From Chloroflexota bacterium (GTDB taxonomy: Bacteria > Chloroflexota > Dehalococcoidia > DSGV01), in the NCBI GenBank assembly GCA_021787985.1, contig JAJYLG010000003.1, positions 1 through 64,000 on the forward strand: 64,000 bases of DNA, read 5' to 3'. Within the stretch, counting starts at the first letter, position 1; every line of letters begins with the position of its first letter. This document shows positions 121-25,673 of this stretch, piece after piece. The notes beneath the pieces were generated by a model. It ran no database searches. It saw nothing but the letters and a program-made list of their open reading frames with translations, and was not told the origin of the DNA. The translations under genes and the position numbers were made by a program.

Positions 121-623
121 CGTTACCCGCTCGCGGCCCATCCGCTTCGCTCGACGGGATCGACCTCGAAGCAGTCTGCTCCCGCGTCAGCGACTGGTTC
201 CAGGAAGCCGCTGGGGACGACATGGCGCTCGTGGGCGACGCCCTGGGCCTCGAGGTCCGCGCGCTGCCGGAAAGTGCATCGCCAGTCGGGTATCGAGCGG
301 TTTGGACTTGCCAGTGGAAGAACATCGGCATGACCGTTGACTTGTACGGGAAACGGGGAGGGCTGCCCTTCCGGCTGACCGTGGAGCTGCTCGGGCCCCG
401 GCGCCGACGGCGTAACGACCTGCCCCCTGTCCCTTCGACCCCCGACACTTCGCACGAGTCTGGCAGGTTGACTTCTCAAGGCCGACGGCCGAACGTGTGA
501 TTATTACAGCCCGCAGACGGTAAGCGCTCGACCCATCGAGCGAATCCCGGCTGCAATCAATGCCCCAGGGGCCGCCAGAATGTGGCCCCTGTATTCTATC
601 CGGGCTGAGCGGGCAAAGGCTGC

Positions 624-19304: not shown

Positions 19305-19871
19305 ATGAGTGGCAGGGAGTCCGAGCCGGTGGAATCTGGGCTGGGGATCGATGCGGTCCGGTGCTCAGCCGCCGAGGGGCGCGTCGCGCTCTTCGAGCGG
19401 ATCGTGGAAGAGAACGAGGCGGTGATCTATCGTTTTCTCTGCGTCACGATGGGCGAGCCGGAAACGGCGCGGGACATCCTGCAGGAGACGTTCATGAAGG
19501 CGTACCTGGCGCTGCCCCGGGCGCGCCCGGACACCAACTACCGCAACTGGCTGTACACCATCGCTCGCAACACCGCGCGCGACGAGTTTCGCCGCCGTAA
19601 GCGTCGCGTGCGGCTGGTCCATCGTGACGATCTGGAGGCGGAGAACGGCCCGGTGCGAGCCGACGAGGACGGGGTGCTGGCGCGCGAGACGCTGCGCACG
19701 GCCCTGGCCTCGCTCGAGCCGGTTACCGCGCAGTGCGTCGTGATGGTGGCGCAAGGCTTGACGTATGACGAGATCGCCCGCATTACTCGTATCTCGGCCG
19801 GCGCGGTGCGGGCACGGGTGCACCGGGCGCGAGAGTCGCTGCGCGAGTCCATGAAGGAGGAGCGGTGGTGA
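19305..19871 (+). CDS. ECF-type RNA polymerase sigma factor
   Basis: VALFERIVEENEAVIYRFLCVTMGEPETARDILQETFMKAYLALPRA...NYRNWLYTIARNTARDEFRRRKRRV; region 4 LTYDEIARITRISAGAVRARVHRARESLRE. Confidence 0.92.
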   Translation: MSGRESEPVESGLGIDAVRCSAAEGRVALFERIVEENEAVIYRFLCVTMGEPETARDILQETFMKAYLALPRARPDTNYRNWLYTIARNTARDEFRRRKRRVRLVHRDDLEAENGPVRADEDGVLARETLRTALASLEPVTAQCVVMVAQGLTYDEIARITRISAGAVRARVHRARESLRESMKEERW

Positions 19872-20899
19872 CGGGCGGGCACGTCGAGCCGGTTGTCCTC
19901 AGCGCCTACGTCGACGGCGAGCTGGACGAGGCAGAGCGGGCGCGGGTGGGCGAGCATCTCGTCCGCTGTGCCGACTGCGCGGCCACGGCGGCCGGGTATC
20001 GCTCCGTGACCGTGACGTTGGCGGAGTACCTGGAACGACTACCCGTGCCCACGGTCGGCGAGGTCATCGAGGCGGCGACCGCGGGTGCCCGGCGGCACGA
20101 GGTCAGCTTGGCCTGGCGACGGGTGCGATGGGTCGGCAGCGTGGCCGCGGTAGCGGCGGTGGTGGCCGCGCTGGCGCTGCTGACGCCCATGGGTGAGGCC
20201 GCCGCGGGCGTCCTTTCGTGGCCGCCCGGCCGTGGCGCGGGCCATAGCGAGCTGGCGCGTGGCGTGCAGATGCCGACCGGCACGGTGGGCGCGGGCAGCC
20301 CGACCGTCGCGTTCACCACCACACGCCCGGCAGGGCCAACCGCGACGGTTACCGCTCCGGCATCCGCCGCGGCCAGTCCGGCGGCAACGACCGGCGGCTC
20401 GCCGACGGCGGCGGCCAGCGCGACGCCGACCTCGGGCGGGACCTACGCCGACCGCGGACCGACCTTCCCCGCGATGCTGCCTCCGCTCGATCCGGGCTTG
20501 AGCGCGGACCTGGTCTACGGGCCGGTGGCGGTCGACGGGCAATGGCTCGACCCGAAGCTCGCCGACACGCTCTCGTTGGTGGCAAAGATCAACGGCACGG
20601 ACTGCACCTTGCGCCGTGGGCTGCCGCAGCTCTTCGAGAGCTACTACGCCGTCGAGGTCCGCGGAGGCACCGACTGCGGACAGGATGGCGCCGTCATCAC
20701 GTTCTGGCTCGGCGACCGCAAGGCGAACGAGCAGGTATCGTACCGCTCGGACAAGCCGCTGCGCTACATCGTGCTGACGTTCGGCAGCAAGCCCGCGCCG
20801 TCGACCGCGCCGCCGCGCGCGCCGTATCCGTTCGTCAGCGACAACGGGCTGCCCGCCACGCCTACCCCCACGCCCACGCCGGCTCCGCCCGGCGGCTGA
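19865..20899 (+). CDS. Anti-sigma factor with zf-HC2 zinc finger, one TM and an S/T/P-rich extracytoplasmic linker
   Basis: VLSAYVDGELDEAERARVGEHLVRCADCAATAAGYR HxxxCxxC motif; TM VGSVAAVAAVVAALALLTPMG; overlaps the sigma gene. Confidence 0.9.
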   Translation: MVTGGHVEPVVLSAYVDGELDEAERARVGEHLVRCADCAATAAGYRSVTVTLAEYLERLPVPTVGEVIEAATAGARRHEVSLAWRRVRWVGSVAAVAAVVAALALLTPMGEAAAGVLSWPPGRGAGHSELARGVQMPTGTVGAGSPTVAFTTTRPAGPTATVTAPASAAASPAATTGGSPTAAASATPTSGGTYADRGPTFPAMLPPLDPGLSADLVYGPVAVDGQWLDPKLADTLSLVAKINGTDCTLRRGLPQLFESYYAVEVRGGTDCGQDGAVITFWLGDRKANEQVSYRSDKPLRYIVLTFGSKPAPSTAPPRAPYPFVSDNGLPATPTPTPTPAPPGG

Positions 20900-22238: not shown

Positions 22239-22868
22239 TCACGCTTCGACGCGGAAGTTGGTACCCAGCTCGGGGCCCGTGCCGAAGTAATGGCGGAAGA
22301 CGTAGAGGAGTGGGCTCCAGCGGCTCGTGTCGATATGGTTCGAGCCGGGGATGACGATGCGCTCGTGCGCATGAACGCGCTCCACGCGCGTCTCGATAGC
22401 CGCCGTCGGGGTCGGGCCGTCGCCTTCAACGGGCGTCGCGCGATGGATGGCCAGGACGCGGGCTTCGAGCTGGATGGGGCATTCGGCCACGCGGGGTGGC
22501 GCGACCACCTCTGAGGCGAGCGCCGTGAGCCCCGCGCATTCGAACTTCTTCGGTTCGAAGCGGTACCCCATGGCGACCTTGAAGCCGGGTACCGGGTCGA
22601 CGCCGGTGGTGTCGGCAATGCGCTCGACCGCCTTCCATAGTTCCGGCGAGGGCATGTTGATGACGCATTCCATGGTGCGCTCGATGTTCAAGAACCCCTG
22701 GCCGCTGGTCGCCATGCCGAGGACGACGCGGTTGCCGAGCGCCCACGACGAGGAAATCGGCGAGAGATTGGGCGTGCCGTCGGGACTTAGCGTGCTGATG
22801 AGCGAGACCGGCGTGCCGTAATAGAGTATCGACGGCTTGATGGTCCGATGTACGATTGCGTTGAGCAT
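22239..22868 (-). CDS. Flavin reductase family (FMN-binding split barrel) protein
   Basis: KPSILYYGTPVSLISTLSPDGTPNLSPISSSWALGNRVVLGMATSGQGFLNIERTMECVINMP. Confidence 0.82.
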   Translation of the reverse strand: MLNAIVHRTIKPSILYYGTPVSLISTLSPDGTPNLSPISSSWALGNRVVLGMATSGQGFLNIERTMECVINMPSPELWKAVERIADTTGVDPVPGFKVAMGYRFEPKKFECAGLTALASEVVAPPRVAECPIQLEARVLAIHRATPVEGDGPTPTAAIETRVERVHAHERIVIPGSNHIDTSRWSPLLYVFRHYFGTGPELGTNFRVEA

Positions 22869-22897
22869 GACTCGAATGTACCGGCCGCCTTGGCGCC

Positions 22898-22923
22898 ATC
22901 GTTTCGGCCACGGACGAAACGAT
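22898..22923. promoter_or_regulatory. Inverted repeat ATCGTTTCG-N8-CGAAACGAT centred in a divergent promoter
   Basis: Perfect 9-bp arms; centre 22910.5 is the exact midpoint of the two divergent start codons (22868 and 22953). Confidence 0.75.
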
Positions 22924-22952
22924 CCCGGATCTCGCCGCGGTATGGTACACGC

Positions 22953-23672
22953 ATGATCGGGACGGATACCTCCCCGGACACCCGCGACATCGCGCTCGCC
23001 TCCGCCGCCAGCCTCATCGGCGACGCTTCGCGCGCCGCCATGCTCTCGGCGCTGCTCGACGGGCGGGCGCTGACGGCCGGTGAGCTCGCCCGCGTCGCGT
23101 GGATCGCACCGCAGACCGCCAGCGGCCACCTTGCGCGGCTCGTAGATGGCGGGTTGTTGGCGCTCGAGGCCCGAGGCCGGCACCGCTACTACCGCATCGC
23201 CAACGCCGACGTGGCCCACGCGATCGAGGCGCTGTCCGCGGTCACGCCCCGACCGGGGCCACGGCTCACGCCCAACTCTCCGCCTGCCGCCATCCGGGCC
23301 GCGCGTACGTGCTACGACCACCTGGCGGGGCAACTGGGGGTGGGCCTCGCCGACGCGCTCGTGGGGCGGCAGATCCTGGCGCGCGGCGACCGGGAGTTTG
23401 TCGTGACCGCGGCCGGTGCCGGATGGTTCGCTGAGCTTGGGGTCGACCTGCAGGTGCTTCGGCAATCGAAGCGGAAGTTTGCCACGACGTGTCTTGATTG
23501 GACGGAGCGGCGGCACCACATCGCCGGAGCGCTGGGGGCGGCCGTCGCTGCCCGGTTTTTCGAGCTGGGCTGGGTTGCGCGCCTCGAGGGCAGCCGCGCG
23601 CTCCGCGTCACGGTCGCCGGCCGGGTCGAGCTGGACCGCGAGCTACGCCTCTCGGTCCACGTGCCTGCCTGA
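22953..23672 (+). CDS. ArsR-type winged-helix regulator with C-terminal extension
   Basis: ASLIGDASRAAMLSALLDGRALTAGELARVAWIAPQTASGHLARLVDGGLLALEARGRHRYYRI. Confidence 0.88.
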   Translation: MIGTDTSPDTRDIALASAASLIGDASRAAMLSALLDGRALTAGELARVAWIAPQTASGHLARLVDGGLLALEARGRHRYYRIANADVAHAIEALSAVTPRPGPRLTPNSPPAAIRAARTCYDHLAGQLGVGLADALVGRQILARGDREFVVTAAGAGWFAELGVDLQVLRQSKRKFATTCLDWTERRHHIAGALGAAVAARFFELGWVARLEGSRALRVTVAGRVELDRELRLSVHVPA

Positions 23673-24632: not shown

Positions 24633-25673
24633 TCAGCGTCCCCGATGCGCGCGAACGAAGGGCAGGCTGCGCATCTGGTCGCCCGTCGACGCCTCGGCAT
24701 CGCGGATGGTGCGGCCGGTGTACGTCATGAAGACGTCGTCCAGGGTGGGGCGGGCGACGGAGACCGAGCGGATCGGCACGCCCAGGCCGGCGAAGAGCTG
24801 AGGGACGAACTGCTCGCCGCCGGGTACGTGGAACGTGACCATCTCCTCGCTGACCGTGGCCTCGATCTCGAACCGTTCGCGCAGCGCCAGGATGGCGGCC
24901 TCGGCGTCGTCCGTGCGGATCTGCACGCGGTCGCGGCCCACGCTCGCCTTCAGCTCCTCGGGCGTGCCCATGGCCACGACCCGCCCGTGGTCGATGATGG
25001 CGATGCGGTCGCAGAATTCCGCCTCGTCCATGTAGTGCGTGGTCATGAAGATGGTGATCTCCTCGCGCCGCTTCAGCTCGCGGATGTAGGCCCAGATGTG
25101 ACTGCGGGTCTGCGGATCGAGGCCGATGGTCGGCTCGTCCAGGAAGAGCACGCGCGGTGAGTGCAGCAGCCCGCGGGCGATCTCGAGCCGGCGTTTCATG
25201 CCGCCCGAGAACGTGCGCACGATGTGGTCGCGCCGGTCCCACAGCTCGACCATGGTCAAGACCTGGCGGATGCGATCCTCCACGATCGACCCGGGGACGC
25301 CGTACAGCTCGGCGTGGAAGCGCAGATTCTCCTTCGCGGTGAGGTAATCGTCCAGCGTGGTGTCCTGGAAGACGAGTCCGATGCGGCGCCGGACCTCTGC
25401 CGGAGCGGCCACGGCGTCGAAGCCGGCCACGCGGGCGGACCCGCTACTCGGTCGGACGAGCGTGCAGAGCATGGAGATGGTGGTGGACTTGCCGGCGCCG
25501 TTCGGCCCGAGGAATCCGAACGTCTCACGCGGCGCCACGCTGAAGCTGATGCCGGCGACGGCCTCCAGCTCGCCATAGCGCTTGTGGAGATCGCGGACCT
25601 CGATGGCGGGGACCGGGCCGCCATCCGGAGGCGCCGCGACCTCGGGCCGCGCGACGCCGACAGGAACGCTCAT
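24633..25673 (-). CDS. ABC transporter ATP-binding protein, DrrA-like
   Basis: Walker A FGFLGPNGAGKSTTISML; signature FSGGMKRRLEIARGLLHSPRVLFLDEPTIGLDPQTR. Confidence 0.95.
   Translation of the reverse strand: MSVPVGVARPEVAAPPDGGPVPAIEVRDLHKRYGELEAVAGISFSVAPRETFGFLGPNGAGKSTTISMLCTLVRPSSGSARVAGFDAVAAPAEVRRRIGLVFQDTTLDDYLTAKENLRFHAELYGVPGSIVEDRIRQVLTMVELWDRRDHIVRTFSGGMKRRLEIARGLLHSPRVLFLDEPTIGLDPQTRSHIWAYIRELKRREEITIFMTTHYMDEAEFCDRIAIIDHGRVVAMGTPEELKASVGRDRVQIRTDDAEAAILALRERFEIEATVSEEMVTFHVPGGEQFVPQLFAGLGVPIRSVSVARPTLDDVFMTYTGRTIRDAEASTGDQMRSLPFVRAHRGR

Follow-up and report, generated by a model that had tools for sequence, protein, structure and literature searches.

Introduction

The operators of SmtB/ArsR repressors are 12-2-12 inverted repeats; for AzuR the repeat overlaps the predicted −35, and ZiaR controls a divergent gene from a shared region (PMC8790569). 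An ArsR dimer that sits on a 12-2-12 repeat over the −35 and controls its own gene together with a divergent one is a known kind of architecture. A second body of work concerns transcripts that lack a 5' leader: a TANNNT hexamer near the start codon marks leaderless genes in high-GC bacteria, and Zheng et al. reported about 4.7% of genes as leaderless in those Chloroflexi genomes where any were detected (PMC3160421).

Here we analyze a divergent gene pair in a stretch of 64,000 nucleotides from a Chloroflexota genome of the class Dehalococcoidia, referred to throughout as the window. The original prediction for this locus was a geometrically symmetric divergent promoter with one operator in both −35 positions. 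On the evidence of the sequence comparisons reported below, we consider it very likely that an ArsR-family repressor with a C-terminal extension controls both its own gene and that of a flavin reductase from a single dimer site.

Results

Organization of the intergenic region

The features of the locus are as follows.

22239..22868, minus strand: flavin reductase-like protein, 209 aa (Pfam PF01613, 39.3 bits, cut-off 27)
22868, minus strand: ATG start codon of the flavin reductase gene (CAT at 22866-22868)
22875..22880, minus strand: predicted −10 hexamer TACATT of the flavin reductase gene, ending 6 nt before the ATG
22898..22903, minus strand: −35 position of the flavin reductase promoter, AACGAT, which is the left operator arm; 17-nt spacer; the same hexamer is found in the relative L126
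22898..22923, no strand: predicted operator, ATCGTTTCG-N8-CGAAACGAT, with the family core TTCG-N8-CGAA at 22903-22918
22918..22923, plus strand: −35 position of the ArsR promoter, AACGAT, which is the right operator arm; 17-nt spacer
22941..22946, plus strand: predicted −10 hexamer TATGGT of the ArsR gene, ending 6 nt before the ATG
22953, plus strand: ATG start codon of the ArsR gene
22953..23672, plus strand: predicted ArsR-family repressor, 239 aa, with an N-terminal winged helix (HTH_20) and a C-terminal extension

The start-to-start distance between the divergent genes is 85 bp, and the palindrome at 22898-22923, a perfect 9-bp inverted repeat that extends to a 12-2-12 form with 11 of 12 pairs, is centered at 22910.5, 42.5 nt from the first base of either start codon. 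On re-checking, the coordinates originally given for both ATGs, both TANNNT hexamers and the inverted repeat were exact to the base; the center of the repeat is indeed the exact midpoint of the two start codons, and on both strands a TANNNT hexamer lies exactly 6 nt upstream of the ATG. The claim that both −35 positions read AACGAT stands in so far as the operator arms do occupy these positions, but they do not constitute a −35 element (0 of 6 bases match TTGACA). No two-box sigma-70-like promoter was detected, and both predicted −10 hexamers are weak. When the flavin reductase was compared with PDB sequences at a threshold of E 0.001, nothing matched.

By itself a 9-bp inverted repeat is unremarkable on the scale of the window: simple arithmetic gives a few expected in 64 kb with gaps of 0-10, which is what can be said for the view that both the repeat and its symmetry are accidental. 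At one given center and gap, the probability of a perfect pair of 9-bp arms is ~6e-6 at the local GC, and for this very sequence, 3 mismatches allowed, the expectation over the 64-kb window is 0.01 occurrences. Chance is ruled out by the position of the repeat, by its match to the family-wide operator and by the exact retention of the geometry in L126: position and sequence are conserved far beyond shuffles, and the comparative data refute a coincidence, to which we assign a negligible probability. The symmetry itself requires no new principle, as it follows automatically when a two-fold symmetric operator is equidistant from two leaderless promoters.

Elsewhere in the window, at 19865-20899 on the plus strand, is a gene whose product has a zf-HC2 domain, a zinc finger of the anti-sigma type, and a long part rich in Pro, Thr and Ala; the open frame directly upstream of it resembles, by eye, an ECF sigma factor.

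Predicted leaderless starts

For each gene we predict a leaderless transcript that begins with the start codon itself, because a TANNNT hexamer ends 6 nt upstream of the A of each ATG. In 342 kb of the genome (the 64-kb window and 278 kb of further stretches, in which genes and starts were called by a simple script), 6 nt is the commonest distance at which a TANNNT ends before an in-frame start, with 8 of the 309 called genes; 5 genes have it at 7 nt, and the mean for other distances is ~2. These counts make a small leaderless fraction in this genome plausible. Besides these two genes, the window has a third candidate, which encodes a DrrA-like ABC transporter ATPase (24636-25673, minus strand); here TAGACT ends exactly 6 nt before the ATG at 25673.

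Conservation of the geometry in related genomes

The nearest relative that we found, L126, belongs to another family of the same class, and its ArsR and flavin reductase proteins are respectively 72% and 84% identical to those of the window. The original prediction had proposed an alignment of orthologous intergenic regions, in which loss of the inverted repeat would have counted as a refutation. The prediction withstood this comparison: the repeat is kept in divergent pairs, and in L126 the geometry is identical, with 85 bp between the start codons and the core of the operator 42.5 nt away from each. The flavin reductase side of L126 reads AACGAT, a 17-nt spacing, and TACGTT-N6-ATG, while the ArsR side has TACGAT-N6-GTG at the offset of TATGGT in the window. 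Aligned from start codon to start codon, the two regions require no gap; each 17-nt spacer keeps 9 of 17 bases (8 changed), and the operator keeps 22 of 26 (4 changed). That length and elements are retained while the filler drifts is a mark of constraint, and the exactness of the full mirror geometry rests on this one independent comparison.

Two other loci of the same class, L127 and L128, have the center of the core 41.5 and 43.5 nt, respectively, before the ArsR start, and in L127 a TACGCT ends 6 nt before the ATG of the ArsR gene. No relative of the flavin reductase was found in either locus. In keeping with the class being Dehalococcoidia, two complete genomes that belong to it, of 1.4-1.5 Mb, have 27 and 28 matches to the reductive dehalogenase family, a diagnostic trait of Dehalococcoides-like organisms.

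Beyond its intact copy, L126 contains a second stretch (185-345, minus strand) that matches residues 63-114 of the flavin reductase with 71-76% identity; it is in two pieces, as in a partial or frame-shifted duplicate.

Divergent ArsR/flavin-reductase pairs with an intervening site occur in Chloroflexota, Actinomycetota and Bacillota. The core, exact or with one mismatch, is found in the pairs of Streptomyces clavuligerus, Embleya and a Streptomyces sp., of three Paenibacillus, a Bacillus sp. and an uncultured Firmicutes MAG, and of another Chloroflexota genome (L161); a weaker, one-sided match was recognized by eye in Paenibacillus cellulositrophicus, Priestia and the Chloroflexota loci L158 and L159. 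In these other lineages the operator lies at other distances from the start codons. Of the symmetric shared-operator layout originally proposed, the shared operator is therefore general, while the exact mirror symmetry belongs to the present lineage and has been seen in two Dehalococcoidia genomes only.

The putative operator across the ArsR subfamily

We scanned the 170 nt upstream of 84 ArsR homologues (80 from named genomes and 4 plasmid matches), which span Pseudomonadota, Actinomycetota, Bacillota, Cyanobacteria and other phyla. TTCG-N8-CGAA is present exactly in 55 of the 84 and with at most one mismatch in 73; the corresponding numbers are 0 and 6 (exact and one mismatch) in an internal control region, and 0.3 and 7.1 in dinucleotide shuffles. 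The remaining 11 homologues have no site even at one mismatch, and in some of these the gene start may be misplaced. The symmetrized consensus is roughly A(T/C)GCTTCGG(C/T)..(A/G)CCGAAGC(A/G)T.

It is highly improbable that the repeat acts in RNA, as a hairpin or attenuator of longer transcripts begun upstream. A perfect 9-bp inverted repeat could fold, but if the starts are leaderless as predicted it lies outside both transcripts, and what is conserved is a fixed TTCG/CGAA sequence, not the pairing of bases that vary. There is no run of T of the kind seen at terminators, and we rejected a terminator or RNA hairpin.

Slightly less remote, and still very unlikely, is that another regulator binds the palindrome and the ArsR protein is inactive here. 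Its one point of support is that the literature searched yielded no binding data for any member of the subfamily. Against it, the motif accompanies the ArsR gene in several phyla and in many different neighborhoods, and as a two-fold 12-2-12 repeat it agrees with the SmtB/ArsR operators in the literature.

The operator precedes ArsR subfamily genes whatever the neighbor (MFS transporter, ABM, hydrolase, P450, EamA and others), and among the relatives the commonest divergent upstream genes are, in counts that are approximate because open frames were chosen mechanically, MFS (14), flavin reductase (5), antibiotic-biosynthesis-monooxygenase domain (4), alpha/beta hydrolase (4) and P450 (3). This indifference to the neighbor, together with an ArsR-side spacing that is nearly equal in L127 and L128, where the flavin reductase was not found, would suit an operator that serves for autoregulation only, the flavin reductase promoter being adjacent through compactness and unregulated or even activated. 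We regard this as unlikely, because L126 keeps the flavin reductase side as exactly as the ArsR side, and because the ArsR/flavin-reductase pairing recurs in three phyla. Control of both genes from the one site is the reading that we retain.

In six Streptomyces loci (L090, L091, L098, L108, L109, L121) the center of the operator is 21.5 nt from the ArsR start in every case, a fixed geometry other than the 42.5 nt of the window.

A search of the window's own genome with up to 2 mismatches returned 22 sites (one exact), against 5 for the reversed pattern, an excess that may reflect dinucleotide content; we claim no wider regulon in this genome. By the open reading frame lists, none of the three one-mismatch sites is convincingly placed at a gene start. 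One site with a single mismatch, CGTTTTGGTCCGGGTCGAAACG (L020:1501-1522, contig C7), precedes a histidine-kinase-like open frame by ~110 nt, possibly by chance.

The regulator and its C-terminal extension

The N-terminus of the regulator passes the threshold of Pfam PF12840 (HTH_20; 34.6 bits, cut-off 27), whereas its score for the NCBIfam HTH_metalloreg model NF033788 (47.4 bits) is below the cut-off of 55. A Foldseek search with a predicted model of the protein (mean pLDDT 89) matched the N-terminus to SmtB, CzrA, CadC, HlyU and YgaV with probability 1.00; the best 50 matches were all to N-terminal ArsR domains, and the extension by itself was unmatched. By its winged-helix DNA-binding domain and the dyad-symmetric operator over both −35 positions, the protein is assigned to the ArsR/SmtB superfamily, as a member of which it would bind the operator as a dimer and repress.

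The extension contains a duplicated CxD...H motif, at C120/D122/H123 and C180/D182/H189. The duplication involves the C-terminal half of the protein: its two parts align locally with a score of 51, where 1000 shuffles reached 43 at most, and C120 is aligned with C180. All 41 aligned sequences share C120, D122, H123, C180, D182, W183, E185 and H189, although the locus search had selected this set for one motif or the other (CYDH or CLDW); both motifs are also present in L042, L043, L044, L148 and L156, which were found without motif selection. The regulator of the window has both, as well as TTCG-N8-CGAA upstream, and is assigned to the subfamily on these grounds.

C120 and C180 are the only cysteines of the protein. 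As there is none in the HTH domain, the classical alpha3 metal site is absent, and a metal-sensing ArsR/SmtB protein with alpha3 cysteines is ruled out. For the same reason the extension is most likely the sensor, by thiol chemistry or by metal binding, with the two invariant cysteines as candidate sensing residues. Identity with CmtR was also rejected (NCBIfam equivalog NF047906, 43.1 bits against a cut-off of 150).

Discussion

These results can be read as an on/off switch of a mechanistically ordinary bacterial type. A dimer of the ArsR-family protein would bind the palindrome, across the −35 positions of both divergent and predicted leaderless promoters, and while bound would keep RNA polymerase off both; from a single site the protein would in this way repress its own gene and that of the flavin reductase. 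A ligand or a redox signal, probably sensed by the extension with its two invariant cysteines, would release the repressor, and both genes would be switched on together. What the sequences show is the geometry, its exact retention in L126 and the tie between this operator and the ArsR subfamily; DNA binding, repression as the direction of control, the start sites, the action on both sides and the signal are inferred from them. Points against the model are the weak −10 hexamers, the mismatch of AACGAT to a −35 consensus, the 11 homologues that lack a site and the Tn10 relative, near which no such site was seen.

A broader reading, which we offer tentatively and with some reserve, is that the subfamily represents an undescribed class of repressors, in which the duplicated CxD...H extension would sense a small molecule that is reactive or redox-active, such as a quinone, and induce detoxifying reductases, monooxygenases and efflux pumps via TTCG-N8-CGAA. 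The present locus would then be a case in which one dimer, balanced between mirror-image leaderless promoters, exerts equal control over sensor and enzyme.

In the literature searched we found no description of the mirror-image leaderless arrangement, of the operator sequence or of the extended subfamily, and no paper in which the ArsR family appears together with either a divergent flavin reductase or TTCG-N8-CGAA. A concrete operator for a widespread, apparently uncharacterized ArsR subfamily makes its regulons and signals testable, and this subfamily includes the regulator beside tetR(B) in Tn10-type elements. The mirror-image pair is also a compact natural setting for asking whether two polymerases can be kept out by a single repressor dimer; with leaderless transcripts, as predicted, no 5' UTR would confound the answer.

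Comparison with known systems

The regulator beside tetR(B), which we take to be the one known as JemC, is 39% identical to that of the window over 90% of the query and shares CYDH and CLDW. Its gene has an ABM-domain gene upstream and, unlike that of the window, has no flavin reductase partner within the sequence examined; no TTCG-N8-CGAA was seen near it. This gene (L175:3974-4660), which hundreds of enterobacterial plasmids carry, encodes a distant member of the subfamily.

Among PDB sequences the N-terminal domain matches best that of CmtR, the Cd/Pb sensor of Mycobacterium (2jsc, E 4.5e-5); the regulator of the window is longer and has its two cysteines in the extension. The likeness to AzuR, SmtB and ZiaR consists in the N-terminal fold (that of SmtB, CzrA, HlyU and YgaV) and the dyad 12-2-12 operator, to which AzuR adds the overlap of the operator with a predicted −35 and ZiaR the control of a divergent gene. 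The differences are in the operator, which is TTCG-N8-CGAA here while the published repeats are TGAA-N8-TTCA-like; in the regulator, which has an extension of ~130 aa and lacks the alpha3 cysteine pair; and in the target, a flavin reductase, with the operator midway between two predicted leaderless promoters. As for the leaderless genes marked by TANNNT (PMC3160421), the same hexamer is found at the same distance on both sides of the present locus, whose distinction is to have two such promoters mirrored around one operator.
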